A program made the translations under genes and the position numbers. From contig JALQPE010001904.1 of the NCBI GenBank assembly GCA_030407315.1, positions 1 through 64,000 on the forward strand: a DNA stretch of 64,000 nucleotides. Direction: 5' to 3'. The notes beneath the pieces are model-generated. The model searched no databases. It was not told where the DNA came from and was given only the letters and a program-made list of their open reading frames with translations. Shown here piece after piece: positions 2-59,305 of this stretch; position 1 is the first letter of the stretch, and each line of letters begins with the position of its first letter. This DNA is from Asparagopsis taxiformis (taxonomy: Eukaryota; Rhodophyta; Florideophyceae; Bonnemaisoniales; Bonnemaisoniaceae).

Positions 2-440
2 CGTCTGTGTTTTCGGAAGTGGACGCGGACGTCCAGTCTCTCTAGTACGGGTCCTAGTCGGCCCCGAGATTACTAGAACAAATGAACGTCCGCGTCCGAA
101 AAAAAAATTAAAATTTTTTGGATGCGGACGTCCACTTTCTCTAGTACGTTCGGCGAATACTAGGACCCGACATCCACTTTCTCTAGTACGTTCGGCGGAA
201 TACTAGGACCCGACATCAGTTTCTCTAGTACGTTCGGCGGAGTACTAGGACCCGACATCCAGTTTCTCTAGTACGTTTGGCGGGATCCTAGGACCCGACA
301 TTCAGTATACAATATATCAGCAAAAACCGGGAGGGAAGAAATTACAGCGGATGGTAAATTGAGGGCCCATATCGGACCGTATTTTATTCTCTCATTTACG
401 AAACTGCTGGTATACAATAAGTCTCTCTAGAATAGGAAAT
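2..440 (+). repeat. Left terminal inverted repeat of the giant transposon
   Basis: This is the reverse complement of 17729-18038, beginning CGTCTGTGTTTTCGG. It contains GGACGTCC palindromes (for example 27-34) near the tip. Positions ~133-305 hold four tandem units of about 42 bp (CTCTAGTACGTTCGGCGG...TAGGACCCGACATC) where the right end has one. The inner section (307-430) continues the match to 17741-17865. The extra units explain the length difference between the two arms. Confidence 0.85.
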
Positions 441-565
441 ACATATCTGATCAGAATAGGAAATAAATACCCGGTTAGAATAGGAAATACGTATCCAGCC
501 AGGATACGGAAATGTATCCAGCTAGAATATGGAATACGTATCCAGCCAGAATACAAAAATACCTG
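427..565 (+). repeat. Short tandem repeats, ~28-bp unit
   Basis: About five or six degenerate units of the form AGAATAGGAAATACGTATCC follow one another just inside the left terminal repeat. No counterpart is seen inside the right end. Subterminal repeats of this kind often flank the ends of DNA transposons; a binding role is only inference. Confidence 0.7.
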
Positions 566-2400
566 TCAGCATACCGTCGATCACCCATCTCCCTCACTAT
601 CGCGTTCTCCTACCATCCGAACGCCATGCACCACCATCCGCACATACTTCAAGAACCCTCACGACCTAGATTACAAAAAATCTGCTCCTTCCCAATTCCA
701 TCCCCGCTTTCCTCGACACCACCCCAGCCCATTAAATCATCAAGACATGAAACACGAACATGGTCAGCAAAAATCTTACACGACTTGAAACCCACTCTTA
801 CTTCTATCGTATGCCCGAAAATATACACATACCAGAAAACACCTCACAGCTTCATTCCCCATCTTCCTAGATCCCTTCTTCACTCTCCCTGAGTCCTGCC
901 GTTCCTGCTTCACCACTCCTGCATCACATACACAACATCAACCCAACAGTCAGATTCAAAAGCAACGCTTCCACGCCAGATATCTTAGAAAATCCCTTAC
1001 TTACCTCTCATCCATCCTACACACAATACAAACCATGATGCAAAAACTTGCAATGAATAATCAAAGTCAGCAGTCCATATCTTCGCAAAAACAAGTCTTG
1101 GCGCTCAATGAAACTTACCTTCTGTCATCACCATTCCAGCATCACCTGCATAAAAATCGAAATCAACAACAACAGTCGGACTCAAAACCCACATGTCCCT
1201 CTCAGCATACTCTCAAAACTTCCGCACTTTCCTTCGCTCGACACAATACGCACCATGACTGGATAAGCTTCCAATGAATAAATATCGCATTAACTGCAAT
1301 AGTCAGATTCGAAACAAACACTTCTCTCGATGCATACCCTCAGAACTCACTTACTCTCGTTTCATTCTACACACAATACAGACCAAAAGTCGAAAATCTC
1401 ACAACCAACAAATGAAGTCAACATTCCGCATCTTCGCACCACCGGACTGCGCGCTAAATGCAACTTACCTTCCGTCATCACATTCCTGCATCACCTACAA
1501 AAAATCGAAATCAACAACAACAGTCGGACTGAAAACCCATGCTTCCCTCGCTGCATACCCTCAGAACTTACTTACCCCGTTGTATCCTGCACACAATAGA
1601 AACCATAAGTCAAAAATTGTACAAAAAAATGTAGTCAGCATTCCATATCTTCGCGCAACTTAACTAGGCGCTCAATGTAACTTACCTTCCGTCATCACCA
1701 TTCCAGAATCACCTACACAAAATCAACATCAACCACAGCAGTCAGACTCAAAACCCACATTCCACTCACTGCACCCCTCAAATGCTCGCCTACCTCCCTT
1801 CCACCCTTCAGCAAATAGCACCATGACTCACTAAGCTCCCAATAAATAAATATTGCATAAAAGACGACAGTCAAATTAAAACAAACACTTCCCTCGCTTC
1901 ATACCCTCAGGACGCACTTAACCTCTTCATCTCGTTGCATCATACAAACAATACAACCAATAATTCACAAATCGTGCAACGAAAAAATGTAGTCAGCATT
2001 CCATTTCATCGCGAAACCCGTCTTTCAGCTCAATGAAACTTACCTTACTTCATCACTATTCCTGCACCACCTATACAACATCAAAATGAACCAGAACAGT
2101 CAGACTAAAAACCCATGCATCCCTTATTGCACACCCGCGAGACTAACTTACTTACCTGCCTCCCATGGTTCACAACATGCAAACCACGACTCACGAAGCG
2201 TCTAATGAATCAATATCGCATCAACGACAACAGTACGACTCAAAACACACGCTTCCCTCGCTGCATACTCTCCAAACTGGCATACTCACCGTCGTTCTAT
2301 CCTCTACACCAAACAAAGGAAACACGACCAAAGAACCTCAGCCAGTGACGGCGGAGAAGTGGAACTCCACAGATTAACCTGCGGCGTCGACTGGACAGCT
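566..2400. repeat. Degenerate satellite-like, C/A-rich repeat block
   Basis: Phrases recur in order: a CATCACC...AATCAACAACAACAGTCGGACTCAAAACCC-like phrase near 916, 1127, 1486, 1690 and 2060; AGTCAGCATTCCATATCTTCG near 1069, 1416, 1631 and 1991; and an AATGAATAAATATCGCAT-like phrase near 1272, 1842 and 2205. Spacing is irregular (about 215-360 bp). The short open frames here are low complexity and drift along with the repeats, so I call no gene. Confidence 0.6.
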
Positions 2401-2846
2401 TTCAACGTCAGCTTAAGTCCTGCTGTGCATACTCCATATCATCGCCGGTATTGAGATTAATAATGGCCAAGCCATGGTCTCTGAACTCCCGAATGATGAG
2501 ATCCGGATCGAGAACATCGGAATGGTATAATCATATATATCACAATCCATTTGCTTCCCTTAAATGATCCCTGTAATATCCACTGTAAAGCACAAACTTA
2601 TTCCATGAAGTTCGCAGTTAATATAATTTTATTATTTCAAATGAATTAATTGAAAATCCATCTCCCACGGCGGTCATTCGTCCTTCCAAGCGCACGTTGC
2701 CAGCAAAATGTGTGACCTAGCGGTGATGATTGATCGCTCAGGCACATTCCACCATTGGGCTGCCAGAAGTGAGCACAAAAACTGATACCCACAAAACCAC
2801 GAGAACATTACAAACGAGGTCTCGAACGCACATTTGGAATACAATA
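2401..2846. other. No feature recognised
   Basis: Unremarkable AT-leaning DNA between the satellite-like block and the outer edge of the foldback. No coding frame or repeat that I can support. Confidence 0.5.
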
Positions 2847-4453
2847 TAAATACTATACAACAAACTCTACTCGCTATCTCAGACGACGCGGCTCACAAGT
2901 GGCGTAGTCCCAATTTTCCGTAACGCCTTTCCTGATGCTTAAAAGTAAAAAACACGTCAAAACGTATATCAGAAATGAGTGCGAGAGTTTTCTGCACAGG
3001 AGATGCTGAGCCACCAAATTGGTTTTGCGGAAATTTTAGAATTTCTGGGCTGGCCAGCAATGCAATCGAGCTGGACATCCACCGGACGTCCATTTCAGGT
3101 TGATCGTGAGAGAGTAGGGCGGGACCATGATGAAACAAGGACCAAGACCTGTCCCTGACGTGTTGAGCCTGAAATCGACCCTTCGTAAGACGCGATTTTG
3201 GCTTACAGTTGGTGCTTACAGAAGCCAGTGATGACCCCGGTCGGGGCGGCAGCCGGTTCCTGGGGCCGTTGTGGCCAAATTAGACACCTTGATTTGAATT
3301 GAAATTTGGGCTATTCTCAAAAACATGCACATGTGAACATGTTTTTGAGATGGGGGTGTGCCGTACGGCACTTTCGACCTCCCAAATCGATATAATTTTG
3401 CAATTTTTTTTCTGACTGAAATTTTAGAATTTCTGGGCTCGCCAGCAATGCAATTGAGATGGACATTCACCGGACGTCCATTTCAGGTTGGTCGAGTATT
3501 GCACATGGATACAGTTTTGCAGCTATTTCTCAGCCCAACATTTTAGAATTTCAGGGCTGACCAGCAATGTAACCGAGGCGGACTTCCACTGGACGTCCAT
3601 TTCAAGTTAGGCTAGTGCTGCACATTTGCTCGCATCGCAGCAACTAAGCAAGTGTTGAGAGCACCGAGATGCCATGCAGACAAGAGGGAATCGGCTGCAA
3701 ACGGCTTCCCTGGTCGGCAGCTGGATGTCTGGATGTCAATGGCTGCAAGCATGGAAATCTTGCTACCGCACGGCGCATACACACTGCAGCAGCACATCAC
3801 TGACGCATGCGAAAGTTGGGTGCTGCAGTGCGTGGTTGTTTGTGTGTTTGTGTGTGCACGACGAACCTTGTGGTATCCCTAGGCGTGCACTGGTGCAAAA
3901 CATTTGGACTGCCCCATCGGTCGTACTTTGACGCATTTACATGCATCGGAGAACGACCAAGGAGGTAGAGCAGCAATCGCTGTTGGCTGAGCGTCCAAAT
4001 TGGAGGGCTTGGGACAATGGTTCTATAGCAGTCATTTATAGGACGCCCACCGTTGATGACTGAGATCCACGGTGGGTTTAGTATTCATGGTGTTGTCCTG
4101 CATTGGCGGATGTCGAAGACGAGTACTTCCAGTGAGCGTCCAAGCTGAACAGCGTGAGTGGGTAAGTGAGCGGGGAGGGGCCGCTCGGGGCGCTTGGTAG
4201 CTTCTGGGGCCGTTGTGGCCAAATTAGAATCGATTCTTGATCAAGCCTATGTCCGGCGGACGTCCTGAATTGCTTTATTTTTGGGCTATTCTCAAAAACA
4301 TGCACATGTGAACATGTTTTTGAGATGGGGGTGTGCCGTACGGCACTTTCGACCGCCCAAATCGATGTATTTTTGCATTTTTTTTCTGACTGAAATTTTA
4401 GAATTTCTGGGCTCGCCAGCAATGCAATTGCGCTGGTCATTCACCGGACGTCC
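2847..4453 (+). repeat. Left arm of a large internal inverted repeat (foldback)
   Basis: This arm is the reverse complement of most of 7075-9185. Conceptual translations of the segment 3612-3931 and its mate 7599-7918 are identical, so the arms are nearly identical there. It contains the hairpin CTCAAAAACATG...CATGTTTTTGAG at 3316-3349 and 4291-4324, each followed by the palindrome GTGCCGTACGGCAC, and several copies of the block around GGACGTCCATTTCAGG. Confidence 0.85.
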
Positions 4454-7074
4454 ATTTCCATTTCAGATCTACTGGTTGCACTAGGCCTGAAAGTGTTTCT
4501 GGATAGGGCCGAATAACGACCTGGGCAGCACGCACTGCGTAAGATGATCTGTGTGATGCAGACTGCAAGGATTTCTATGGTGATTCTGGCTGGGGAATGT
4601 GGTAAGCTTGATTGTTGCGTGGCTTTGTATCTCCTTGCCTGCCATTTTGCTTGGATATTTACACGAGCGATCAAACCGAAGACGCCGACTCGGCACAACT
4701 ACCAACTCTCCTAGCTTCGAGTCAGCGCCATCTAATTGCAACTTGTGACACTCAAGACGAATACGTTGTGCTGATCTCTGCAATGAAAATTGAGTTAGTG
4801 CTGCAGTTCTTTTGGGCGATGCCAATATGCAGGGATACTGTTTACACCTTTTGGGAGTCAAGAAGTTCTCGGATTGCAAATCAAATCAGATCATGGTAGA
4901 ATATCTGACTTTTCTCTCTTCCCTTCACCACATCTGCATCCGGAGCTGAGCCAAGCTGAGCTGGAGGGAACCCGGCCGCTGACCCCTGTCATTCTCATAA
5001 ACATCTTTAATGCAATACTATTCGTGTATGGTAATGTAAGTGCTAATGAAAATGTATACAAGTCTAGAATAAACGTTGCAGTGGTTCTTTGTAGCTATCG
5101 ATACTTGCTAAAAATCTGTAGCTTTTGCTTTTCGCATGGACGAGTTGCAGTCTTTGTGTTTGTTTCATTTCTGCCACAAACGAGAGGCAATCAGGGTCTG
5201 TGTTCACATAGAGAATGATTTAATATATGCGCTCATTGCCGTCGTAGATACTTTTAACAATGGCCAGTACGTTTCTCTCGGCCGCCGCCGGGTACGGTCG
5301 GACTGAAAGATCGGGGAGATGTGTGGAGAGTAGTGTTTCGATAGAGACGAACGTTGCGATGGATGGAATGGTGATGATTTCATGCTGAAGCGATGGGAGA
5401 TGGATGGATATGGTTGAATGAAATCTAGTATTCCGAAGGAGGCCTTTTCTCGAGGAAGAGGCATTATATTCTCACAAAGCATGTAGATACTGGTTTCCAG
5501 TTTGGTATGCTATTGTAGCTCAATTCACATCATATCTACACGTACGTATGGAGAGAGATCCAAGTGTGCGTGGCACAGGTCCAACGGTGAAACAACGCAG
5601 TATGAAACTACCACAGATAAGGCGGCGTACAAAATCCTCGACTCAAGGCAGCTCTCAGGCTTTCGTGAGCACCGACTTCGTTCCACCAAGATGTTTCGGA
5701 AATATGTGCTGGTCTAACTTGATACGACCATAGGACAGTTTTGCTCCCTAAGCAATGAGCGAAAAATCAATGATTGCGCGTGTCGTCGGTACGGTCTTGT
5801 AATGTTGGCTCAACCAATAACATCTAACGTTGAGTTATCCACCCTCCGCCGTGTCGCGTCGTAAATTTGCACAGAAAATTTGTTTCAAATCTTTGCTCCA
5901 ATTATCAGCTCAAATACGGCATTGATCTCCAGCTTCATCTGGACAGAAACACCGATCGCTCGATGTCTGTCTCAAATAAACCGCAGTCAAACGCCATGCG
6001 GAAAGTTTCATCGCTTCCCGTTGCGACTGAATCTGCAAACGCCACACAAAAATTTGCCCTTTCCGCGTCCGGAACGAACGCCGACTACATGTCGTCAGGT
6101 TCCTGATCGACTGGATCGATGGAGCTTGCTCTGCAGGAGAGCAGGACAGGCGGTTTGTTATGCCTGGACAATTTCCATACCGATCTCCCTTCTTGAGTGC
6201 AAAATTACGAGTCTAGAAATTGACCTGCATCGGCTGCTGTATCACATCTGTGCTAAGGATTGATGATACCCGTACCGCTGAGAAATTGCAGCTCTGGTAA
6301 CGTGGGGATGATGTGCTGAACACGCAGAACGCTGATCCATAATGGGACTGCTTCATAGGCATAGTACGGAATGTATTGAGACAGCCCAAGCGAATTCAGG
6401 AGGGAGCACCAGGGCAGTGCGCGGTGACTCAGCAGATACCAGTGGTGAGTGGTCTAAATGGGGCTACACACGAGTTTGTCAATGAACAGTCTAGTTTAGT
6501 TGGAAATGTTTCGGATGGATGGTATGTTGTAAATGTCGACAGATTTGAGGAAGCGATAGAAGCAATCAGCACCGTGTAGTTGCATCAAGGCTTTAGTGGC
6601 CATTGTTAGAGAACTTTCTCCAATGCCCTTATTGCAGGATGGGCAGAAAACCCGGCCGGCTTCGAGATTGAAGAATTCATTGCGCAGATTGAATGAATGC
6701 AATTGACGGAGAATGCAGAAGTATACAATGGTTCGTTTTGCAGGGTGACGTAGGGGAAACATGTTGGGCTTGTTGGAAATGCTGAGAGCGATGATGAGAT
6801 CCAGTCGTTTCCGTCGTAGATGGCAGTGCTTGTTTTCTGCACGGCTAGCTTGTCTGCTGGGCGACTGGACGGTATTGGCGTACGATGAAGCGGGACTGGT
6901 GGTGTTTAAATGACATTTTTTTGTTTGAAGATGGATGTATGTGTGCGACTAGAATGTAGTAAGAGCATGAAAATGTTTATGTTTGATGGGCGTCGCATGT
7001 TGGGGGACTTTATGTCGTGTGGGGCAATAATGTCTCAGGTATTTGAAGCAGACAGCAATCGCTTGAGCGCATAT
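4454..7074. other. Spacer between the foldback arms
   Basis: This 2.6-kb unique stretch lies between the two arms. No intact gene is recognised. The only family resemblance seen is a possible copia RNase H scrap at 4612-4899. Other short frames (for example 5867-6263, 6376-6579, 6496-6762) have no recognisable motif. Confidence 0.55.
4612..4899 (+). pseudogene. Possible Ty1/copia RNase H relic
   Basis: The frame contains CDTQDEYVVLISAMK followed by a hydrophobic stretch. This resembles the conserved S-T-x-E-A-E-Y-x-A-L-x-x-A-x-K segment of copia-type RNase H. Upstream and downstream sequence does not extend the match convincingly. If real, it is an old fragment captured in the foldback spacer. 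Chance resemblance is quite possible. Confidence 0.25.
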
Positions 7075-9185
7075 AGACGTCCGGTGAATGACCAGCGCAA
7101 TTGCATTGCTGGCGAGCCCAGAAATTCTAAAATTTCAGTCAGAAAAAAAATGCAAAAATACATCGATTTGGGCGGTCGAAAAGTGCCGTACGGCACACCC
7201 CCATCTCAAAAACATGTTCACATGTGCATGTTTTTGAGAATAGCCCAAAAAATAAAGCAATTCAGGACGTCCGCCGGACATAGGCTTGATCAAGAATCGA
7301 TTCTAATTTGGCCACAACGGCCCCAGAAGCTACCAAGCGCCCCGAGCGGCCCCTCCCCGCTCACTTACCCACTCACGCTGTTCAGCTTGGACGCTCACTG
7401 GAAGTACTCGTCTTCGACATCCGCCAATGCAGGACAACACCATGAATACTAAACCCACCGTGGATCTCAGTCATCAACGGTGGGCGTCCTATAAATGACT
7501 GCTATAGAACCATTGTCCCAAGCCCTCCAATTTGGACGCTCAGCCAACAGCGATTGCTGCTCTACCTCCTTGGTCGTTCTCCGATGCATGTAAATGCGTC
7601 AAAGTACGACCGATGGGGCAGTCCAAATGTTTTGCACCAGTGCACGCCTAGGGATACCACAAGGTTCGTCGTGCACACACAAACACACAAACAACCACGC
7701 ACTGCAGCACCCAACTTTCGCATGCGTCAGTGATGTGCTGCTGCAGTGTGTATGCGCCGTGCGGTAGCAAGATTTCCATGCTTGCAGCCATTGACATCCA
7801 GACATCCAGCTGCCGACCAGGGAAGCCGTTTGCAGCCGATTCCCTCTTGTCTGCATGGCATCTCGGTGCTCTCAACACTTGCTTAGTTGCTGCGATGCGA
7901 GCAAATGTGCAGCACTAGCCTAACTTGAAATGGACGTCCAGTGGAAGTCCGCCTCGGTTACATTGCTGGTCAGCCCTGAAATTCTAAAATGTTGGGCTGA
8001 GAAATAGCTGCAAAACTGTATCCATGTGCAATACTCGACCAACCTGAAATGGACGTCCGGTGAATGTCCATCTCAATTGCATTGCTGGCGAGCCCAGAAA
8101 TTCTAAAATTTCAGTCAGAAAAAAAATTGCAAAATTATATCGATTTGGGAGGTCGAAAGTGCCGTACGGCACACCCCAATCTCAAAAACATGTTCACATG
8201 TGCATGTTTTTGAGAATAGCCCAAATTTCAATTCAAATCAAGGTGTCTAATCTGGCCACAACGGCCCCAGAAGAAGCCATCCGACGCCCCGAGCGGGGCC
8301 ATCGCTGGCTTCTGTAAGCACCAACTGTAAGCAAAGCCACATCTCACGAAGGATCGATTCCAGGCTCAGGCTCAATACGCCAGGGCGAAGTTTTGGTCCT
8401 TGTTTCGACATGCTCCCACCCCACTTTCTCACGACAAACACTGCTCATCCATCATGCTGCCCATGCTACGTGCACTTTGTATGAGTAGTGAGCCCGCCTG
8501 CTTAGTTGCTGCAATGCATGGATGTGGGCAGCACACGACCAACCTGAAATGGACGTCCGGTGGATGTCCAGCTTGATTGCACTGCTGGCCAGCCCAGAAA
8601 TTCTAAAATTTCGGGCAGAAAAAAATTGTGAAAAATCATCGATTTGGGCGGGTCGATTGTGCCGTACGGCAGACCCCCATCTCAAAAACATGTTCACATG
8701 TGCATGTTTTTGAGAATAGCCCAAATTTCAATTCAAATCAAGGTGTCTAATTTGGCCACAACGGCCCCAGGAACCGGCTGCCGCCCCGACCGGGGTCATC
8801 ACTGGCTTCTGTAAGCACCAACTGTAAGCCAAAATCGCGTCTTACGAAGGGTCGATTTCAGGCTCAACACGTCAGGGACAGGTCTTGGTCCTTGTTTCAT
8901 CATGTTCCCGCCCCACTCTCTCACGACCAACCTGAAATGGACGTCCGGTGGATGTCCAGCTCGATTGCATTGCTGGCCAGCCCAGAAATTCTAAAATTTC
9001 CGAAAAATCAATTTGGTGGCCCAGCATCTCCTGTGCCGAAAAATCCCGCGCTCACTTCTGATGTACGTCTAGACGTGTTTCGCACTTGTGCGCATCAGAG
9101 AAGGCCTCACGGAAGGTTGAGACTACGCTATTTGTGTACCGCGTCGTCTGAAATAGCGAGTAGTGTTTGTTGTATAGTTCTGGAG
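7075..9185 (-). repeat. Right arm of the large internal inverted repeat, with an extra ~500-bp unit
   Basis: It mirrors 2847-4453 but is about 500 bp longer because one module is present twice in tandem: the hairpin block starts at 8181 and again at 8681. A third hairpin copy sits at 7205-7238. The GC-rich stretch ending CACAACGGCCCCAG is diverged between the two tandem units (around 8255-8440 and 8755-8930), while the hairpin parts are nearly identical. Confidence 0.85.
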
Positions 9186-10344
9186 TATGCGTCTAGTGGT
9201 TTGTAAAGCTTGCAGAACGGGATAGGGATGTGGGTGGCCCTATTTTATGAATACATGAGTACCAATATTCAGGGTTGACAAAGCGGAAAGGCATACGTTC
9301 ATACATGTTTGAGATTGCATAGTGGAGAAAATATTTACATCGAAATTTAGATGGAGCTGATGGAGGTTTTTAAGGATGAGGTATGAGAGGAAGAAAATTC
9401 TTCTGTGGTATGAGGATGTGTTCTCTGGAGGGATGCAATCTTGGAATAGTACAGGGGGAGGTGGAAATGTACGGAGTGCGGGTTTAGATTGGATTGTGAT
9501 TCGGAGAGGAGTGCCGACGAGCATATGATGGGGATTGGGGAGACACTGCGGGGTGTTGGGGTAGTGAGGGCGGAGGAGGTGTTTAGGTGGGACCGTAGGA
9601 GGGTGCGGTTGAAGGCGCCGAGAGGAGGGGTTTTTTAGGAAAGTGAGGAGAAAGAGGCGGGAAGGGGGTGGCGTCTGTTCTGGCTTTGGTGAGTGGGGAT
9701 GTGATGGAGAAGAAGGGGGTTATTGTATTTGGGGAGGGACGAGAGTGGGAGGATGGGTGCGAAGTGGGGGGTTGATATGTGGTTCAGAGCGGGGAGGTTT
9801 CTGGGGAGACGGCGTCGGAGCGGGAGCGTGGGCCGGTGGTGGTGGTGGTGGTGTATACGGTATCGAAGATGCGGATGGCGTGGGGGCATGTAGCAGGTGA
9901 GGGAGGGAGGAGTGGAGCAGGTCGGGTACGGGATGAGGAGTGAGAGGTTTTCGAAGAGTAAGCTACAGGGGAAGTTTGTGGAGAGGGCGAAGGAGAGGGG
10001 TTGAAGGAAGAGGAGAGAGGGTATTGAAGAACAATACGTTGCAAAGGTGATGGGGGAGAGCATGGTCGAGGGGATAGGGGATGTTTTCCCTATTCTGAGG
10101 TAGTATGAGGACTGGTTATAAGAAATCTGTACGGTAGAGCAGAAAAGTAGGTATGGAATGGAGGTGTGCACCGTGGAAGCGGGGATAGGTAGCTGAAAAT
10201 GCGTTCTAGAGTGGTATTGGGGGTGTTTGAGGTACAGTACGGGGGAGGTGAGCACCAAATGGAAGGGGGTGTGAGCGAGAGGATGAAAAAATTAAAGACG
10301 AAATTGGAGTCGACCGACAAGGAAAAATAGAGTGGTCGCCGTGA
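9186..10344. other. Purine-rich low-complexity stretch, no gene called
   Basis: The plus strand is strongly G/A-rich with many GGGGAGG-like runs from about 9420 to 10300. A long minus-strand open frame (9635-10258) reads as proline/serine/histidine-rich low-complexity sequence. It is explained by the base skew that removes stop codons, so it is not called as a gene. Confidence 0.5.
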
Positions 10345-10642
10345 TGGATGCGGACATCCATGTCGAGCAAGGCGGCAGAAATTTCCGGGGTCGAAATTTT
10401 GAATTTCTGAACCGGCGCCCGTCCTAGGTTGACATAGACATGGCGGAAGTCCATCCCGAGGGGGACATCCGTGGTACTAGAAACAATGAATGTCGTCCTA
10501 GTAATACTAGACGTACTAGACCGCATGGACGTCCGGTTCTAGGCGGACATCCAAAAATACTGGAGAACATGGACGTCCGCCTAGTAATACTAGGTGTACT
10601 AGAGGTTGTGGACGTCCGCGTCCATTTCCGAGAACACAGACG
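10345..10642 (-). repeat. Diverged copy of the transposon end
   Basis: The segment ends GTGGACGTCCGCGTCCA, then a TTTCCGAGAACACAGACG tip, in the same orientation as the right terminus at 18038 (ACTTCCGAAAACACAGACG). It contains several GGACGTCC copies and CTAGTAATACTAG phrases like those in the terminal repeats. Internal spacing differs, so it is an older or rearranged relative of the true ends. Confidence 0.7.
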
Positions 10643-11644
10643 TTCTTGAATTATGAGCCTTGAATCCATCGATCTCATTGGACGCCCGGAACTCTCTTGA
10701 ATTGAAGGATTCCAGCGTGCCAGTCGTAGTTCAACCAGCAATGACTGTGGAAAGACATGTTATCTGTCTGATCTCTAATCCGAATACTCTTGGTGGGAAC
10801 GATTCATTATCTGCTCCCGTTATTATTCCACATGTTCGTAGAACAATATTCTGTTCATTGAATGGAGTCATAATGTAAATGTTCTACCATTTATATGCAT
10901 CAAGTTGCATGCTATTGCACCTGAACCTTGTAAACACCATTTTAGTTGTACAAAAATCGAATCAAGCTTCTGTAGTTTGAGAACAGTACGACGTACTACT
11001 TTTCGGCAGGCCTTCTTTGTGCACCGTTCAAGCAATAATAATGTTCTTTCGGTCTGAGTTTCTATTTCTAATATGCATTGTTTATCGTCTAAGTTGCAGT
11101 GGGTAGGAATGTACTCTAAGGTGTAATGTAGGATATGGAATGTATTAAGGGATGAAAGAAACCTGGTAGCTGCGCTGTTTACTGAAAAATGGCATTGCAA
11201 TGGGGAAATGAGAATGGGTTTTCGGTGTGCAAGATACTCAGACCTGTTCGGTAATATTGGTATCGGAGGGGAAGGTGGCGAAACCTGTTCAGAAATTCCT
11301 GCTATTAGCAGCGAAAAGATGATTTGTACGGCCCATTTGCTGTATAGGAAATAGTCCTGGTGAGATGGGCCATTCCTAGGAAATATGAAAAAAATATGCC
11401 AAGTGTTGTGAGCAATATAGCAAATCAGATTGCCAAATCATTCCATCATCTGGATAGACACGGCCCGGCGCAATATAATTTTTAGAATACCCCACTACTG
11501 ATATTTCTGATTGGCACTCATTGGGAGAGTGCTTGCGTCTCCTATCCACTTCAATTGTCTCCCTAGTAATGGGAACCACGATACACGGGCCACCACCGCC
11601 GTTGTAATCCGGTTTGAGCCGTGTCGTGCCCTGCATGGCCAAGA
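10643..11644. other. Intergenic, no gene recognised
   Basis: About 1 kb between the diverged end copy and the inverted repeat preceding the methyltransferase gene. Short open frames on both strands show no motif. The promoter of the downstream gene probably lies towards the right side. Confidence 0.4.
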
Positions 11645-11740
11645 TGCTTCACCATGCCAAAACCGAAATGACCGTTCACATTGGATCCAATGTGAACGGT
11701 CATTTCGGGTTTGGGACAGTGTACTATGCATGGTGAAAGT
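11645..11740. repeat. Near-perfect inverted repeat upstream of the methyltransferase gene
   Basis: The core 11663-11708 is a perfect palindrome centred on GGATCC at 11685/11686, with arms CCGAAATGACCGTTCACATT. Partial symmetry extends outward to CTTCACCATG on the left and CATGGTGAAAG on the right. It lies about 150 bp before the likely coding start at 11880. It could form a cruciform or be a two-fold-symmetric binding site; the role is inference. Confidence 0.85.
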
Positions 11741-11879
11741 ACACTGTACTTGAGTATGGCGTTCATGACAATCATTTCAAGTCCTTCATGCGAAAGTGCG
11801 AGAAATTGATACAGAGTTTTATAGCTTCTGTTTCCCCTTCATTTCTTACCCGCACTTCATTATTTCAGAACTGGATGAC

Positions 11880-14819
11880 ATGACGAGATTCTTCAAGAGG
11901 AGTGGGTCCAGAATCAGTTCCAAATCAGGTCCTCCAGAAGAGGAACCGGGTACTTCCACCATGAAGCACACTAATACCGCCTTATTTGCAGACGTCATGG
12001 AAGGGTCTACGAACACACGTGTTGATCCGCGGGCATGCATCCCACTCACTGCTGTTCGACAAGTAGTGCGCTCTGGTGTGTTGCGATTGAAGTCGATATT
12101 TTCTGGAAACATGAAGTCAGCACAATGTCAAGAACAAGATGAAACAAACGAAATTGATGGATTCATTTCGGGCTCCGACAATGCGATCGTAGTCGAGTTG
12201 ACCGGGTCGTTCCAGTGCCACATTATTGAATTTTTCAAAACGATACGCGGTCCTCAGGGTGATTTTCTTTCTGACAGTGAGGCGAAAGAGAAGTCCGAAT
12301 GCCGTTCCGTTTGGTACGGAGTTGTTGACGGTATGCACAGACTGACTGCAATCCAGGAGTTAATGGATGAGAACCCGGAGAGGTGGGACTCTTTTATGTG
12401 GCCTGTCACGATACTGAAAGGAGGTCATTCTATCCAAGTTCTGAAACAACTAGGCAGACATCAGAACCGTAAGCATGATGCAACATTATATGTCGAAACC
12501 ACGTTCTATGATATCCTGAGCGGAATGAAAGAAGAAGCCCACCGGATGCAGAGCATGACCTCAAAGCCACCTACAGCCAAACAAGTTGCTGCCGCATATG
12601 ATGGTTGCTCCCACCTCAAGGATAACACCGTCAGACAGACTGCTGCGACGGCATTGCGCCTTCCTGTGCGAGTGATCGAAGAGATTGGAACAATTATGAA
12701 TTCGGAGCATCCAGACTTGGCAGAACCTCCTTCTAGCAACAGTATGGCATTGAAAACTCGGAGAAAGGGTACTAATACCCCAATGACAAGCGTTGACTGT
12801 CGCGTGTATCGCAAATTTGTGAATTTAACATCTTTGAAATCTGCAACCAAGTTCATGAATGCTTCGGGTACTGATGCTGAAGAAGTTCAAGTTCATACTC
12901 TTTACAGGCTTCGGGGAATCTCCAGATTGAATAAATTCAAACCAGTATCATACAAAGATACCCTCCAGCAATACGAATACACATGCGCAGCGATGAAAGA
13001 AGCGCGTAAGTTCGAGGTTCTTCATGAAGGACAGGTATGGCCAAAGGGCATGGAATCAATCAAGCAGAATCTACTTCGCTCATCAAAGTTCGATACTGAT
13101 GTTATGGAGAACATGGGAAACGATTATAATATTCTGGATGCTCTTTTGAAGCAGTACCGGAAAGTTTGCCCTCAAATTGCTCCCATGAAGGAAAAGAAGT
13201 ATCGGGAAAGCCATCGAAAAGACCCAGATCCCGATTCTTTCTGTCAGGAAATTGGAAAGACGGCAGCCGATAACGAAAATGCAGATACAAGGGACGCGAA
13301 AGAAGAGAAACAAAAAGATGTCTCGAAGGAAGATAGTGTTCCTCAACTAGGCTCCGAAATATGTGATGAGGATATAGTCTCGGTACCGAAGATGAGCCAG
13401 ATAACGCAAGAATCTGTACAAGATGAAGTTGACGCTTCCGAAAAGGTTATCACCGGACCTAAAACTTCTATTCCAGTGGACCGAATGATAACAGAGAACG
13501 ATGTCTCTGCTTCACCTAGTATCAACTCAGACCGCCTCAACCTTCATTCTAAACGCGGTTCATCTGGTACGAATGGGCCAGAAAGAAAAGACTACGTTCT
13601 TGAAATGGGAATTACATGCTATCAGATGAAATGGCAGGACTTCGACAAGGAAATATGGACAAATGAGTACCCTCTTCAGGATTTAGTTCTTACCGACCCT
13701 CCGTATGGAACTCCGAATTCTAAATCCCTTCGTAATACCGCATATAACAATTTCATAAGTGATAAGGAAATCAATGCATTATGCCAGTTTGCAAGGAGAG
13801 CCTTGAAGCCAGGTGGCTGGTTTTTCTGTTTTGTATCATTCCGAAACTTTCCAGCATTCCTGCATGAGCTGAGAAACGTCGGTTTCGACGGTCCGGAATA
13901 CCCTTTCGTATTCATGAAAGACACGAACACTGTACAAGCACATCGCGGAGATATGTTCCCACAAAACGCGTGCGAGTTTGCAGTTGTTGCCAGGGCTCCC
14001 GGACATCGTAAGTACGGTTTCAAGCCAGACCTTCGAAGCCAATATCACCTCGTCCCAACAGAAACGAAACGGAAATTCGCTGCAATGTCCAGAATTCCCG
14101 TTTCGAAAGACAAACTTCTCACTCCAGGAACAAAATCTCCTGTTCTAACAGAAGAGAAACATATTGGAATGTTATCCGAGATAATCAACACGTTTTGTCC
14201 TGAGAGGGGTTCAGTTATTGATGTTTACGGAGGAACACTTACTACTGCGATCGCAGCGATGAAGACAGCCCGTTCATGTGTGGTTGTGGAAGCTAGTACC
14301 AAGATTTTCCGTCTCGCTCATGAAAGACTTCGTTCTATTGCCGATGCTTTGTATCATAATGATCTGAGATCACGTATCGGATCGAAGAAGAGGAGAACAG
14401 GGAATCATGCAGAGGATGGCGTTCTGCTAAGCCAACCGAAAATCTGTTCGCTACAGAAAAAGGGAAAAGATGATAATACAAATGCCGGTAAATCCACTAT
14501 CGAAGGAATAGAGAGAGTACTGAAAGGAGGAGATTCTGTTGAACTATACATTTTGGATCAGGTCGTCGGAAAAGCGTCTCTCCTTTGTGCAGGAACTAGT
14601 GATGAGAGGTTCCAAACTACAATACACAATGTACCTCTAGCGAACTTTCAAGGTGAGGATGAGAAACTTGTATCTTGTTATATGTTCGAACCGAACGAAT
14701 GTTGTTTGGATTGTCCTTACCCGTACAAATACGGTGGTATTGAACCTCCTCCTGGAACTTTGAACGGGCTGAACGGGATATTCGCATGGGACTTGAACAA
14801 GATGAGGCCGTTGTCTTAG
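11880..14819 (+). CDS. ParB-like domain fused to a DNA amino-methyltransferase (N6-adenine or N4-cytosine)
   Basis: From the ATG at 11880 this is 979 residues. The frame is open a little further upstream, but without an ATG. A pyrimidine tract ending TTATTTCAG at ~11868 could be a splice acceptor for an upstream exon. Around residues 140-165 the motif VVDGMHRLTAIQEL matches the ParB/Srx-like fold (D-G-x-H-R). A long helical middle and a charged linker (~440-575) follow. Near residue 605 comes TDPPYGTP, the catalytic DPPY motif IV of amino-methyltransferases. Near residue 780 comes DVYGGTLTTAIAAM, a variant of the AdoMet-binding FxGxGTT motif with Leu in place of the last Gly, then VVVE for the ribose contact. 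Motif IV before motif I is the beta-class order. ParB-methyltransferase fusions are known from phages and bacterial mobile elements, so an ultimately bacterial or phage origin is likely. It is probably a passenger of the transposon. Confidence 0.8.
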   Translation: MTRFFKRSGSRISSKSGPPEEEPGTSTMKHTNTALFADVMEGSTNTRVDPRACIPLTAVRQVVRSGVLRLKSIFSGNMKSAQCQEQDETNEIDGFISGSDNAIVVELTGSFQCHIIEFFKTIRGPQGDFLSDSEAKEKSECRSVWYGVVDGMHRLTAIQELMDENPERWDSFMWPVTILKGGHSIQVLKQLGRHQNRKHDATLYVETTFYDILSGMKEEAHRMQSMTSKPPTAKQVAAAYDGCSHLKDNTVRQTAATALRLPVRVIEEIGTIMNSEHPDLAEPPSSNSMALKTRRKGTNTPMTSVDCRVYRKFVNLTSLKSATKFMNASGTDAEEVQVHTLYRLRGISRLNKFKPVSYKDTLQQYEYTCAAMKEARKFEVLHEGQVWPKGMESIKQNLLRSSKFDTDVMENMGNDYNILDALLKQYRKVCPQIAPMKEKKYRESHRKDPDPDSFCQEIGKTAADNENADTRDAKEEKQKDVSKEDSVPQLGSEICDEDIVSVPKMSQITQESVQDEVDASEKVITGPKTSIPVDRMITENDVSASPSINSDRLNLHSKRGSSGTNGPERKDYVLEMGITCYQMKWQDFDKEIWTNEYPLQDLVLTDPPYGTPNSKSLRNTAYNNFISDKEINALCQFARRALKPGGWFFCFVSFRNFPAFLHELRNVGFDGPEYPFVFMKDTNTVQAHRGDMFPQNACEFAVVARAPGHRKYGFKPDLRSQYHLVPTETKRKFAAMSRIPVSKDKLLTPGTKSPVLTEEKHIGMLSEIINTFCPERGSVIDVYGGTLTTAIAAMKTARSCVVVEASTKIFRLAHERLRSIADALYHNDLRSRIGSKKRRTGNHAEDGVLLSQPKICSLQKKGKDDNTNAGKSTIEGIERVLKGGDSVELYILDQVVGKASLLCAGTSDERFQTTIHNVPLANFQGEDEKLVSCYMFEPNECCLDCPYPYKYGGIEPPPGTLNGLNGIFAWDLNKMRPLS

Positions 14820-15216
14820 TCTTATTACGTATAGTTTCGCTCGGCAGATTTGAACAAAACCACTGCAATAAACCTTTAGCTCGGTTTCGTACCATTTGTA
14901 AACCTTCAGAGAGGAAAGATTGTTGTCATTTTTCCCCGTAATCATGGGCGCATGAAGAGCACAAATCAACCAATCAGCCGTACTCCATTCACAACAGAGA
15001 TTGATTTGACATAGGTATTTGGCGCTGTATCCTGGGCCAACTATCGCCGTCGAGGAGGCCACTCTGCATCCATATTAGATGAACGTCTCACCGGTGTCAT
15101 TCCTACTCACCATGCATCTTGATCAACCGATATACTCGTCTTGCAGCCATCTCTTTTCCACGCTACCTGCAAATCTAACTACCGTTCAGAGATAATTCGT
15201 TCTGCTCCCACAGCAG
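14820..15216. other. Intergenic gap between methyltransferase and DDE genes
   Basis: About 400 bp separates two genes on the same strand. The end, TTCTGCTCCCACAGCAG directly before the ATG at 15217, resembles a splice acceptor but may be chance. No other signal is seen. Confidence 0.4.
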
Positions 15217-17592
15217 ATGGCTCCGCGTTTTCATCTCGCCGAAGCTAGGAATGACGCACTGGAGAAAGCCGAATCATACATGAAATCTCTTTCTAGGGAC
15301 TCCGAATCAAAACACGCTCCTTCTGTTGAAACCATATCTATGCCGCGTAGCCACGATGAAGTGATGCATGGAATAGTGGGTACTTCTTCCGGCTCTTTCC
15401 GATCCACGGCTTCGATTTATAAACCATTTTCACGACTACAACACAGGAAGAATTATGAAAGTGTGACGAGGTCCAGTTCAGTTCGTCGAAAGAGCAGTAT
15501 GCTAGAGAGGCGGGTGAAGTTCAGTTTGTCACTGCCCAAAACAGATATAAGAAGAATACCATGCTGCAATACGGGATGCTTCAGAAAAACCGACCATGTT
15601 TTCCTTCGGAATGAAGCAGAACGAGTTTTGTTGTACAACAGGGACGACCGCCGCATGTATCTGCACGCTCTACTGGAACCAAACAGTAACCGGTTCTACT
15701 TCTCTGGGAAGCCTGTGTGTTGCGAATTCCTAGAGTACAGCTTCAAGTTTTCACGACACCTGCAGACCTCGGTAAAGAAAGCTTGCCAGAATGGGAGTCT
15801 TCCATTTATGGCTTCTCCGAAACGAATTTCTGGCTCTCCACATAGAGATGCAGTGATCTGCTTCCTTGAACGCTTGTCTGCCTCGACTGCTGATATGATG
15901 CCAGACAGTGGAGAGAAGCATCTGCCTCTTTTCGAGAAGAAGGCTGTGTACGAGATGTTCTGCGACCAATTTACGTTATTATACTCGAACCGGAACCCAC
16001 CAACTTTGAGCTACTTCTACAACACCTGGAACACGTTTTGTGCGAATATCAAGGTTCGGCGTGTCCAGAGGTTCACGAAATGTTCGGAATGTGAGTACAT
16101 ACGTGATAAACTGGAAGCCATCGGGACAGATATTCAACGCACTGCTCCGCTTCTGGAACGTCGCCAGCGTCATATCGAGATGGTGGCACGGGAACGCAGG
16201 GAGTATCAAAAGAAGTGTGAAGAAGCGTCACTATATCCCTCCAGGTTCACGTCTCTGATCGTAGACGGGGCTGATCAATCAGGATACGGTCTTCCCCATT
16301 TCACGGTATGTACAAAAGCGACTGTTGGTCATAGTTTGAAGGTGAGACTCATAGGTGTTCTCGAAAATGGTGTCCGAAAGCATCTTTCGTTGTACACACT
16401 TACTGCTGAATTCGAAACTGGGGCAAATCATATCATCGAGGCAATTCACAGGACTCTTACCAAAAAGGTTATGGGTTCGAGTCTTCAGGGAACACTGTAC
16501 TTGCAGGTAGACAATTGCACAAGAGAGAACAAGAACACGTTTCTGTTTTGCTATCTAGAATGTCTCGTTGCTTGGGGTGTGTTTGAAGAAGTACACGCTT
16601 CTTTCCTACCCATCGGCCACACCCATGCAGACATCGACCAGGCCTTTAGCTGTACCTCTCGCAGGCTACGTTCCCACAACGCCGTCACTATGGAAGATTT
16701 AGTTGAACAACTCAGAGTGTCCTATACTCCGGAACCCTCTGTCTCTCGTATGTTGCACGTGGCAAACTTCTCCGGTCTCTGCCGGAGTGAGAATTCGGTT
16801 GGAAAAGTGCATGCTTTCTCAAAATTCAGATACTTCAGGTTTCACCGATCCCAAGATACAGGAAAAAGTTATGACTTCTACAGAACTGCATGCGATGTTA
16901 AGATATTTTGTGAAGACAACTGGAAGCCTCTCCCAGTTCTCACTCCGGGGCTGAATGGTTTCCTGGTTAAGCCTCCTGAACTGAAACGAACACCGAGTAA
17001 TATCATACGTTCTCCTCCAGATCGACATGAGGTCCTGCTCCGTTTTCGTTCGGAAGAGAGCAGGGTCAATAACAATTCTAAAATGGATCAGCTACATGAG
17101 CTTCTACGACAGGTTTATGAGGAAAGGGAAGATTCTTTTCATTGGAACCTCACCGAATGTTTCGAGATGAATGGCATGTATCGAAAAGGGAATCGGAACG
17201 TCGTCCCGATGGAGGAGGAACTCATGTCGACTGCAGATTGCATACCACTATCAGACTTGCCCTACTCGGTGAATCGCTTCGTGGCTGTAAATGGAGAAGA
17301 CTGTACTACTGAGATGCCGTTCTGGCTAGGACAAATTATGAGTTGTAAGAAAAACAACGAAGGGGTTATTTGTCAGCTGTGTGTTCGGTGGTACGAGGTC
17401 TACGATGGAAGAGACGCATGGTCAGGTAAGTATAGGCCTGCCATGCTTCGAAAGGGGAGAACAACAGTGGCTTGGAAGGGACATATTTCGGTTCACACCG
17501 TCATTGCAGAGTTCCCTTCACTAACAAACAAGATGATAAGAGCTGGGGTAGAGAAAGAGATCAGGTCAGGCCTGGCGTCTATTCCGAAGTAA
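15217..17592 (+). CDS. DUF7869-type RNase H-fold (DDE) protein, candidate transposase
   Basis: 791 residues from an ATG start. The N-terminal third has a Cys-rich CCNTGC motif (~residue 112) and a GKPVCCEFL helical segment (~residues 170-180). CSECEYIRDKL follows at ~290, then the RNase H-like core. Its acidic positions are IVDGADQSG (D350/D353), LQVDNCTRENKN (D432) and GHTHADIDQ (D472/D474), the pattern of the DUF7869 family found in many algal and oomycete repeats. The C-terminal part (~686-745) holds a BAH/chromo-like segment, FWLGQIM...VRWYEV...GKYRPAM. It lies 137 bp from the right terminal repeat in the same direction as the methyltransferase gene. No stop or frameshift breaks it. I infer it mobilises the element. 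The family match is confident; the catalytic assignment of the acidic residues is not proven. Confidence 0.75.
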   Translation: MAPRFHLAEARNDALEKAESYMKSLSRDSESKHAPSVETISMPRSHDEVMHGIVGTSSGSFRSTASIYKPFSRLQHRKNYESVTRSSSVRRKSSMLERRVKFSLSLPKTDIRRIPCCNTGCFRKTDHVFLRNEAERVLLYNRDDRRMYLHALLEPNSNRFYFSGKPVCCEFLEYSFKFSRHLQTSVKKACQNGSLPFMASPKRISGSPHRDAVICFLERLSASTADMMPDSGEKHLPLFEKKAVYEMFCDQFTLLYSNRNPPTLSYFYNTWNTFCANIKVRRVQRFTKCSECEYIRDKLEAIGTDIQRTAPLLERRQRHIEMVARERREYQKKCEEASLYPSRFTSLIVDGADQSGYGLPHFTVCTKATVGHSLKVRLIGVLENGVRKHLSLYTLTAEFETGANHIIEAIHRTLTKKVMGSSLQGTLYLQVDNCTRENKNTFLFCYLECLVAWGVFEEVHASFLPIGHTHADIDQAFSCTSRRLRSHNAVTMEDLVEQLRVSYTPEPSVSRMLHVANFSGLCRSENSVGKVHAFSKFRYFRFHRSQDTGKSYDFYRTACDVKIFCEDNWKPLPVLTPGLNGFLVKPPELKRTPSNIIRSPPDRHEVLLRFRSEESRVNNNSKMDQLHELLRQVYEEREDSFHWNLTECFEMNGMYRKGNRNVVPMEEELMSTADCIPLSDLPYSVNRFVAVNGEDCTTEMPFWLGQIMSCKKNNEGVICQLCVRWYEVYDGRDAWSGKYRPAMLRKGRTTVAWKGHISVHTVIAEFPSLTNKMIRAGVEKEIRSGLASIPK

Positions 17593-17728
17593 AAACGCCT
17601 CGTCTTCGACGACACGAGTAGTTCAATCAACTTTGTTATCCTATTCAATCAATATGAAAAATATCTCTCATGTTCAATCAACTTCAGAAAGTTGGATTCT
17701 GGTTTGGAAAGTACGTTCTGTTCATAGC

Positions 17729-18038
17729 GAAATCAGTGTTAGAGACGTATTGTATACCAGCAGTTTCGTAAATGAGAGAATAAAATACGGTCCGATATGG
17801 GCCCTGAATTTACCATCCGCTGTAATTTCTTCCCTCCCGGTTTTCGCTGATATATTGTGTACTGGATGTCGGGTCCTAGTATTCCGCCATATTTACCAGA
17901 GAAAGTGGACGTCCGCATCCAAAAATTTTTTATTTTTTTTTGGACGCGGACGTTCATTTGTTCTAGTAAATCTCGGGGCCGACTAGGACCCGTACTAGAG
18001 AGACTGGACGTCCGCGTCCACTTCCGAAAACACAGACG
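17729..18038 (-). repeat. Right terminal inverted repeat of the giant transposon
   Basis: Reverse complement of the left end, with its tip ACTTCCGAAAACACAGACG at 18020-18038. It holds GGACGTCC at 18006-18013 and one copy of the 42-bp unit that is repeated four times on the left. The adjoining outside sequence is the 3' part of a gypsy pol region. Confidence 0.85.
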
Positions 18039-18821: not shown

Positions 18822-19080
18822 CCCAGTAAGCCTTAAAGATGTACCGAAGATAGCCGCATGATGAACCTATGACATGCATTGTGTTCCTCTGATGTACGGA
18901 TAAAGAACATTTGCTCTTCAGCTGATGGCCGCATAGCGATACACCAATGATGGACGGGAGATGTCCATACGCTCATCTCCCGGACATCAGCGAAGTATCT
19001 CTTGCGTACAGTAGAGATATCACGTACATCATTGGTTCATCTAAAACATATCAGGGGTACATATTCGTTTTCTTATAGGG
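18822..19080 (+). mobile_element. 259-bp MITE, copy 1 (inside gypsy pol)
   Basis: It begins CCCAGTAAG and ends CTTATAGGG, imperfect 9-bp terminal inverted repeats, flanked by CGC at 18819-18821 and 19081-19083 (3-bp target duplication). It matches copies at 54573 and 55016 along its full length. Internal inverted phrases (GATGTACC/GGGTACAT, GATGAACC/GGTTCATC) allow folding. It has no coding capacity and is presumably mobilised in trans. Confidence 0.92.
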
Positions 19081-19083
19081 CGC

Positions 19084-20195
19084 GGTGCGAGACGGATGCG
19101 GTCGGAACTAACGAGTTCGGCCACGCCGTCTATTACGATTTCGTAGGTATTGCCGCGAAAGCTTATTACGGGAAAGGGGCCGGAGACAGGGTAGTCCAGT
19201 TTCGACGCGCGCGTCCCCTCGTCTCGCTGCGCTTGAGTCGTCGCTCCCGCGCGGGTATCCAAGTATACTTGGTCGCCAACCTTGACGTCCTTGTTCACTG
19301 CGCGTACGCCGCCGCGGTCAAAGTCTCGTTCGTAACGCGCTTGCGCTTTCTTCAACGCGCTTGCTGCGCGCGCGTACGCGTCCGATAATCGCGCTAGAAA
19401 TTCCATACGAAGGAACGGCGTGCTGCGAATCGTGTCCACTTGTTCCGTTCCTAGCGATACGGGGTAGCGCGTGAGCGTAAGTTCGAATGGCGATGTATTC
19501 GTCGAGCGGTGTATCGCGCGATTGTAATCGTACGCTAGCGCGTCTAAGTGCTGGTCCCAATCCCTGTGCTCTTCATCTGCATAATGACGCAGCGTCGCGA
19601 CGATGGTACGGTTCATGCGCTCGACTTGTCCGTTCGATTGCGGGTGATACGTCGTTGTGAATATGTTTCGCGTACCCATTAGCGCGCAAGTCTCCTGAAA
19701 CAGCTTGGAGCGGAGTTGCGGCCCATTGTCCGAAAGTAGCGTGCGCGGCGGTCCGTAAACGAAAACCCAATCTCGGCAAAATGCCTTCGCAACGGCGAGC
19801 ACGGATACGCGTCCGAGCGCGATGAGTCGGCAAAGTTTGCTATAGCGGTCGGCGATTACGAGTACGAAGCGGCGTTGGCGCGGAGTCTCGGGTAGCGGAC
19901 CCAGGATATCGATAGCGACGTCTTCGAACGGGCGCGTCACGGGGAATAGCTTCAGGGCGTTCGTGTGGCGATATTGCGTAACGCGGTTGGGTGCACACGT
20001 TTCGCACTGTCTCACCGTAGTGTAGACGTCTACGCTCATCATCGGCCAGTAGTACGCGCGTCGGATCGCGTCGTACATGCGTCGCGCGCCCGGGTGTCCT
20101 GCGGCTTCCGGGTAATGGTTAGCTCGCAAAATGCGCCCCTTTATGGTTTCGGGCACGATTATCTGCGTGGCGCCGTCGAGCGGAGCGGTCCTCAT
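19084..20195 (-). pseudogene. Gypsy integrase
   Basis: An HHCC zinc-binding segment (HYPEAAGHPGARR ... CETCAPNR) is followed by the catalytic core with AIDILGPLP (D), LLSDNGPQL (D) and NGQVERMNR (E), the D,D-35-E pattern of retroviral-type integrases. The frame then runs into the MITE, so the last dozen residues are MITE-derived. At its N-terminal side it is out of frame with RNase H because of a length change in the G run at about 20208-20212. Identity is clear; function is lost in this copy. Confidence 0.9.
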
Positions 20196-21153
20196 GAGGA
20201 TCCCATCGGGGGAAAGGTAAACGCGATTGCGGAGCGGTCTCGACGTCGCGTTTTGCGTTCTGGCAGAACTCGTCCGTAGCCTGCTCGCGTATCCACTCGT
20301 CAGCGGATACGGGTGGTTCCATACATGCTCGAGATGTCAACAGAGAATCCAGGCTAGGGTAATATTCTGCGTATTCGCATAGTAGCGCGGTGTCAGTTCG
20401 AGCGGGCGCGTTCGCGTGCGGTTCGACGATGTTCGCGGCGCCGAAGCAGGGTATCTCGTCCGGTATTTCCGTTTCGTCGCCACTTCGCGTGGCCATTCGC
20501 GAGAGCGCGTCGGCCATAACATGGCGTTTACCCTTCTTGTACTCGACGTCGAATTCGAACTCGACGAGTCGCAACCGCCAGTGCGCGAGTCGTCCTTCCG
20601 CTGAGGTCAGGTTTAGGATCCAGCGCACCGAATTGTGGTCTGTGCGAACCGTTAACTTCCGTCCTTCCAAATACGCGCGTAGTAGCAACACTGCCCATAC
20701 CACTGCGAGACATTCGCGTTCCGTCGTCGAATAATTTCGCTCCGCGTCGTTAAGCATGCGCGACCAGTATCCGACTGGATGTAGTACGTCGTCGTCTGCG
20801 TCTAGCTGTAGTAACGCGCATCCGATTTGGCCTTGCGACGCGTCGGTGTCGAGCACATACGGGTGCCCTTCGCGCGGTAGACGGAGGATAGGCGGAGATA
20901 GTATCGCTTGTCGCAATGATTCGAACGCGCGCGTTTGCTCCGGCGTCGGCGCGAGTAAGTTGTCTCCTTGGTCCTTCTTCAGCAGCTGCGTGAGCGGGGC
21001 TGATACGAACGCGAATTTTTCGACGAATCAGCGGTATACGTTGCAAGTTCCTAGAAAGCTGCGTAGCTGCGTTTTCGTCGTCGGGTACGTCGCATCGCGC
21101 AGTGCGTCGCATTTCGTCGTCGGCACGGATAGCTTTCCAGGCGAAATAGTATG
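20119..21153 (-). pseudogene. Gypsy reverse transcriptase end and RNase H
   Basis: The frame resumes the RT thumb after the frameshift near 21155 (RSFLGTCNVYR) and is broken by TGA at 21028-21030, where Ty3 elements normally have Arg (YYRRF). RNase H follows: YVLDTDAS (D), ERNYSTTERECLAVVWA (E), TVRTDHNSVRWIL (D) and MADALSR. It ends out of frame shortly after the shift near 20210. An intact relative would have RT, RNase H and integrase in one frame. Confidence 0.9.
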
Positions 21154-22976: not shown

Positions 22977-23018
22977 CGTCCGCGGAAACTTCGAAAACCT
23001 GAACGTTGCGCTGCAGGT

Positions 23019-56521: not shown

Positions 56522-56661
56522 GTTATGGGCCCAGAGGGCCAGGATAAACCAAGGGAATTCCTGCAACCGCCCCCTCTCACTATATCCACAGACATCTTTC
56601 AATGGCGGAGCAATATCCGGAGCTGGGTTAGGCTGGTAAGAAAGCTGCCAAAGGCGGGGAC

Positions 56662-58781: not shown

Positions 58782-59193
58782 GGATATAGCCCTTCCATAC
58801 TCGGTGTACCGTCGACAATCGCCCCCCCCCGAACTTGTCTCTGCATATCAGCAACAAATGGCCACACGCGCTTTGGAAAAATTACTCCGCACCCGTTCCC
58901 CCAACAACATTCCACAACATCTACTTCCACCAGGCCGTCCCGTGTGGGTGTACCACAAGTCCTCCGAGCATTGCGAACCCAACCAATGGCTGAAATGTAA
59001 TTTTATATCTGCTCAAAAGCATTTTATCCTTGTACGCCGAGACTCTTCAACAAAAGGACAGCCGATGAAAGTCGCATATGAGGACATCCGCCTTGCTTCA
59101 GAGGGACCTTTAGCTGAATCTCTATCGGCATGCACACTTGAGGAAGAGCTAGACTATCCTAACAGCCAACGACCGCTTGACAGCCTCACATAA
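58782..59193 (+). pseudogene. Copia integrase C-terminal region (pol part 2, frameshifted)
   Basis: After the TGA the same frame reads GYSPSILGVP, then a run of nine or ten C near 58823-58832 shifts it. The next frame continues PELVSAYQQQMATRALEKLL and RPVWVYHKSSEHCEPNQW, typical of the region after the copia integrase core. It ends in TAA at 59191-59193. About 110 bp without a clear frame separate it from the RT part. Confidence 0.75.
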
Positions 59194-59305
59194 ACATTGT
59201 CCCGCATTCAAGCCAATACATCACCGCACCGGCCTATAGCACAAATATTCCGCAGTCCGACAATACGGGGGTGAGGGAAGTGAGCATTGGTGTATTGTCG
59301 CTCCA

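Follow-up and report, generated by a model that had tools for sequence, protein, structure and literature searches.

The first 64,000 nucleotides of contig JALQPE010001904.1 of the red alga Asparagopsis taxiformis (contig C1780 here; this whole stretch is called the window) hold the right-hand part of a mobile element in which a gene for a predicted amino DNA methyltransferase (MTase) lies beside a gene for a DUF7869 protein, a predicted DDE-type transposase. Comparison with further copies in the same genome (141.5 Mb in 3,156 contigs) makes it probable that this is a many-copy DNA transposon of 13.6-14.1 kb, with terminal inverted repeats (TIRs) of its own and 4-bp target duplications, whose MTase likely methylates the element's own DNA. 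The element has borders that recur from copy to copy, many copies, two tightly paired genes and gene trees that match; target duplications flank three of its four complete copies, and unoccupied sites are present in the genome.

Loci were read with 1.5-kb flanks, 30 around the MTase gene and 10 around the DUF7869 gene, the window's own locus being in both sets. The right end, CATAGCGAAATCAGTGTT at window position 17740, is reproduced exactly by all 10 copies read across it; their right flanks beyond it are mutually unrelated, which rules out an MTase residing within a fixed host locus. The window copy is 99.4-99.5% identical to those on C544 and C2416 over about 5.7 kb. On the left side, of the 29 MTase loci other than the window's, 25 extend beyond 10643 into sequence that is not in the window; similarity ends inside this point in 4 of the 29 (L029, L030, L035 and L038), and in L031 and L032 divergence sets in further left. 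The window copy is truncated at 10643 by an element of the CGTCTG family that ends at 10628-10642, and lacks the leftmost 6.5-7 kb found in complete copies.

The left ends bear AAYACTGAWTTCGATATGAACAGAACGTACTTTC, which pairs with the right end in inverted orientation; those of L049 and L050 can be aligned to it over 70-71 columns (86-89% match) and thus form TIRs with it. Allowing up to two mismatches, the AAYACTGAWTTCGATATGAACAGAACGTACTTTC end pattern occurs 183 times in the genome and its reversed control not once. Within the ends lie subterminal repeats, TTGATTGA: in both left ends read they are offset by 62 and 81, and in the right end by 59, 88 and 110; there is one more in the other 6.9 kb and none in the 46 kb of the window beyond 18038. 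Both ends were found for four copies, whose lengths, calculated from match coordinates plus three bases per end, are 13,632 bp (C544), 13,881 bp (C1701), 14,075 bp (C431) and 14,077 bp (C2648). The duplications flanking three of these are TAGG, CATT and ACAT; the flanks of the C2648 copy contain none. Sola and Ginger are known superfamilies with 4-bp target duplications. The unoccupied site was predicted by joining the flanks around a single copy of the duplication and, at up to two mismatches, all three predicted sites are present in the genome, exact matches included, with reversed controls at 0. The C1701 target was found at 4 places, the C544 target at 988 and the C431 target at 8,211, the last being a repeat that occurs five times inside the window's CGTCTG element. 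The number of copies should not be read as the number of independent insertions, since C704 and C784 have a common left flank and some contigs are perhaps alleles or duplicates. In one copy, L058 (C704:1150-1290), the right end is gone and the element runs into GGGGATTAG-type repeats, telomeric in appearance by eye.

It is clear that the two genes travel together. DUF7869 lies directly downstream of the MTase on the same strand at all 30 MTase loci, and the MTase lies upstream at all 10 DUF7869 loci, bearing out the proposal of the sequence-only reading that a DDE-type protein and an amino-methyltransferase are carried jointly by a eukaryotic DNA transposon. Protein searches of this genome gave at least 45 MTase loci, with 25 of 33 full-length rows free of stops (45 of 3,341 first-look candidates were scored), and at least 56 DUF7869 matches; 34 of these 56 have a listed MTase alongside by coordinates, the other 22 being outside the loci read. 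A second pair, on C609 (L065), is arranged head-to-head and is 29% and 37% identical to the window pair; match coordinates give the same arrangement at C974, C2255, C2616, C2011, C2012 and C2038. Beyond this genome, four MTase relatives lie on contigs equal in bases to contigs with DUF7869 relatives (7,926; 8,748; 7,140; 8,751), which suggests that these pairs are linked as well, and P0001, P0004, P0130 and P0136, on contigs above 7 kb, had no equal-size DUF7869-relative contig among the matches listed. For six pairs, with linkage seen directly in two and presumed from contig size in four, the trees of the two genes have identical topology, with r 0.97, a value reached by 2 of the 720 label orders, the true order being one of them. 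Apparently, then, the two genes have been passed on jointly through deep divergence.

The MTase domain occupies residues about 573-826 of a 979-aa form. Its DPPY motif precedes the S-adenosylmethionine-binding motif in a predicted CcrM-type fold and, by this fold and motif, the protein is predicted to be a beta-class N6-A/N4-C DNA methyltransferase, which would add N6-methyladenine (or N4-methylcytosine). The sequence-only reading described a fusion of a ParB-like domain with an amino-methyltransferase; the methyltransferase part is sustained by PF01555 and DPPY, and the ParB part is weak. No Pfam ParB match was obtained in the MTase, although such an absence is no evidence against ParB. Comparison of the N-terminal domain with DndB matched 4 of 18 aligned members (best 19.6 bits, below the cut-off of 29.1), and with DGQHR one of 18, again sub-threshold (E 0.017); the domain may be described as weakly ParB/DndB/DGQHR-like.

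In the 791-aa form of the DUF7869 protein the core is predicted at about residues 340-500 and a BAH-like domain at 677-779 (model as in the table). D350, D432, D472 and D474 are invariant in 58 of 58 sequences compared, and the protein is predicted to be a DDE/RNase H-fold transposase with a chromatin-reading BAH-like domain; a search of its sequence profile against solved structures gave no convincing relative (best E 0.46). On the opposite strand, the left half of complete copies contains a P-loop (GMCGAGKTT) piece and pieces resembling TPRs, whose Pfam matches lie below threshold. A shorter DUF7869-like frame, on the opposite strand as well, matches in its N-terminal part (41% over 59) and its BAH part (30% over 103). 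This frame has no match to the catalytic core, and its product could act as a repressor. In the two genes and six open reading frame (ORF) pieces of the left half, which cover that half in part, there was no Pfam match to the KDZ transposase domain or TET/JBP, nor any match to a reverse transcriptase or tyrosine recombinase.

From these features a working scheme can be proposed. The DUF7869 protein would bind the element ends, at the terminal repeats and the TTGATTGA repeats, and would move the element by cut-and-paste. The MTase, which likely marks the element's own DNA, would modify element copies, and the mark might keep them expressed or license their ends for transposition, as in transposons with DNA-modifying anti-silencing enzymes. 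We favour an anti-silencing role, since the available part of PMC12730594 describes transposon-borne enzymes altering epigenetic marks as a means of countering silencing. A bolder form of this proposal, advanced only tentatively, is that a chromatin-reading DDE transposase and a CcrM-like MTase are bound in an old, obligate partnership, the mark on element DNA allowing the transposase to distinguish self from host. This would be a eukaryotic equivalent of mobility guided by modification, and several families of this kind would have flooded the genome with hundreds of bacterial-type MTase genes.

Alternatively, the MTase could time transposition, methylated ends blocking the transposase and newly replicated, half-methylated ends permitting it, with the element supplying its own enzyme. 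Host Dam exerts such methylation control on bacterial Tn10 and IS10. The strict pairing and co-inheritance with the transposase are in line with this explanation, as are the clustering of adenine-holding repeats at the ends and the closeness of the predicted fold to that of CcrM, which is a maintenance-type enzyme. However, TTGATTGA or any other end sequence is only a putative target of the MTase, and TTGATTGA is non-palindromic, so that half-methylation would not be straightforward; we consider this explanation unlikely.

The MTase might also be a passenger, captured once, carried along with the transposase and dispensable for movement or survival. The variants among the 30 copies (44 silent, 122 replacement and 6 stop) give a near-neutral ratio of 0.82, in keeping with a passenger, with DPPY intact in 28 of 30; 123 of the 172 variants are singletons, as expected for decay after insertion, and recent copies are therefore little informative on selection. 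Counting against the pairing, and in favour of a passenger, is also the finding of 118 DUF7869 relatives and 16 MTase relatives, in searches that used different cut-offs and, for the MTase, scored 7,991 candidates only. The MTase is therefore probably a feature of one branch of the DUF7869 family. Of 86 pattern matches to relatives in viral contigs none was confirmed, nor was any of seven in prokaryote genome contigs with P0127 as sole query; 54 phage records match, to the MTase domain alone, the 10 listed at 26% identity. A passenger would not, however, be expected to retain its catalytic and N-terminal motifs in relatives only 32-57% identical to the window MTase, to share the tree of the transposase or to stay in the pair in a second, head-to-head arrangement (L065). 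Conservation at 30-60% identity is the evidence that the MTase mattered, and a passenger is a distinctly improbable explanation.

The sequence-only reading had taken the inverted repeats at 2-71 and 17969-18038 (70 nt, 100% complementary) as borders enclosing both genes. The repeats and the two long ORFs are indeed present, but the repeats do not border the genes. A scan of the window for CGTCTGTGTTTTCGG at up to two mismatches gave three sites against 0.11 expected: 2-16 (+), 18024-18038 (-) and a third end at 10628-10642 (-), matching at 14 of 15 positions, beyond which the 25 loci described above continue. Exact CGTCTG ends number 646 + 672 = 1,318 genome-wide. The first eight listed were fetched for comparison; all eight lack both the MTase and the DUF7869 gene within 1.5 kb, and all eight carry the sequence of window 17741-18038 (92-98% match), so the CGTCTG repeats are foreign to the MTase element and are the ends of a different, far commoner family. 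Nor are other copies bounded by CGTCTGTGTTTTCGG ends, as had been expected: of the ten copies only that of the window has an exact CGTCTG end within 1.35 kb of the right end, and in L046, whose right flank is CGTCTG-family sequence (window 9368-10642, 95%), an inexact end lies about 1.27 kb off. Many copies of both genes occur outside such ends, an outcome named beforehand as refuting their enclosure. At L011 the DUF7869 gene is interrupted by CGTCTG-family sequence. A single 18-kb transposon bounded by CGTCTG repeats, suggested by the 70-nt identical arms and by the CGTCTG-family right flank of two copies among the ten, L039 (that of the window) and L046, is refuted for the copies read and retains scarcely any probability, given the exact end missing at 9 of 10 right-end loci, the third end at 10642, eight gene-less ends sharing one flank sequence, and true ends with target duplications elsewhere.

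Table 1. Features of the MTase/DUF7869 transposon and its surroundings; coordinates are those of the window, except in the last row.
Feature	Position	Strand	Basis
Separate CGTCTG-family element (A), outside the MTase element but interrupting it	2..10642	.	ends 2-16 (+), 10628-10642 (-)
Right-hand 7.1 kb of one MTase/DUF7869 transposon copy	10643..17740	+	alignment to other copies, shared right end
Predicted beta-class amino DNA methyltransferase	ORF 11769..14819, ATG 11880	+	PF01555, E 7e-12
DUF7869 protein, predicted DDE/RNase H-fold transposase	ORF 15196..17592, ATG 15217	+	PF25273, E 4e-48; model m941295720165
Right terminal region: TIR (about 67 nt common to left ends) and three TTGATTGA subterminal repeats	17593..17740	.	
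Flank of the MTase element: remnant or end of another CGTCTG-family element, its insertion target	17741..18038	.	match to 8/8 ends
Head-to-head DUF7869/MTase pair at L065 (C609)	734-2923 and 3744-6800	- and +	

DIRS elements are retrotransposons with a reverse transcriptase and a tyrosine recombinase. They encode Dam-like N6-adenine methylases and so resemble the present element in being eukaryotic mobile elements with an amino DNA methyltransferase (PMC5890265, here and below in its available part). The present element differs in its predicted DDE transposase, TIRs, 4-bp duplications and CcrM-type (beta-class) enzyme. DNA transposons with a DNA methyltransferase (DNMT) aboard have been reported from marine viruses; theirs is a cytosine methyltransferase (PMC5890265), and these together with DIRS are the prior art. 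The retrotransposons of dinoflagellates and charophytes are likewise many-copy elements with a DNA methyltransferase, but are retroelements with C5-cytosine enzymes (PMC5890265). In fungi, KDZ and other DNA transposons carry TET/JBP dioxygenases, DNA-base-modifying enzymes beside a transposase that are discussed as a counter to silencing; those enzymes oxidise marks, whereas the MTase of the present element would add them, and Zisupton makes 8-bp target duplications rather than 4-bp ones (PMC12730594, available part). The N4CMT of bdelloid rotifers belongs to the host, includes a chromodomain and takes part in silencing transposons; in the available part of PMC8885841 it is not described as transposon-borne. 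A search of open-licence PubMed Central, with subscription papers and preprints outside it, gave no report of an amino-methyltransferase in a DDE DNA transposon of a eukaryote, and no paper on DUF7869 was found in the same collection.

With this element, a predicted DDE-type DNA transposon joins the mobile elements of eukaryotes that have enzymes for modifying DNA, and its bacterial-type amino-methyltransferase apparently remained next to the transposase during the divergence of six lineages to about 30-60% identity. The standing question of what benefit a transposon-borne methyltransferase brings to the transposon is now directly testable, since there are recent copies, many without stops in both genes, the ends and unoccupied sites are known, and 6mA/4mC can be read by long reads. 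A genome with at least 150 MTase-domain matches is, furthermore, a natural place to seek bacterial-type marks in eukaryotic DNA.

These PF01555 matches lie above the cut-off and fall into recurring ORF lengths of 943, 1080, 1106 and 1186 aa; the genome also contains at least 150 DUF7869 matches, and its load of bacterial-type methyltransferase genes is unusual. In one ORF of 1186 aa (L064 845-4402; C390:63844-67401), an N6_N4 methyltransferase (E 2e-16) is fused to a SET domain at the C-terminus (E 4e-6); a ParB-like motif can be made out by eye near the N-terminus, and the genome has dozens of copies with the same score. SET genes are described in other transposons, namely HarbingerS and the MuDR of Phytophthora, in the available part of PMC12730594. 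Within the window's CGTCTG element, 3260-4285 and 7245-8270 form a 1,026-nt inverted repeat that is 100% complementary. Elsewhere in the window there is a Prp8 gene at about 36-43 kb, which marks the host as eukaryotic, and frames at 19041-23018 (-) and 56632-61114 (+) resemble, by eye, Ty3-type and Ty1/copia-type retrotransposons, respectively.
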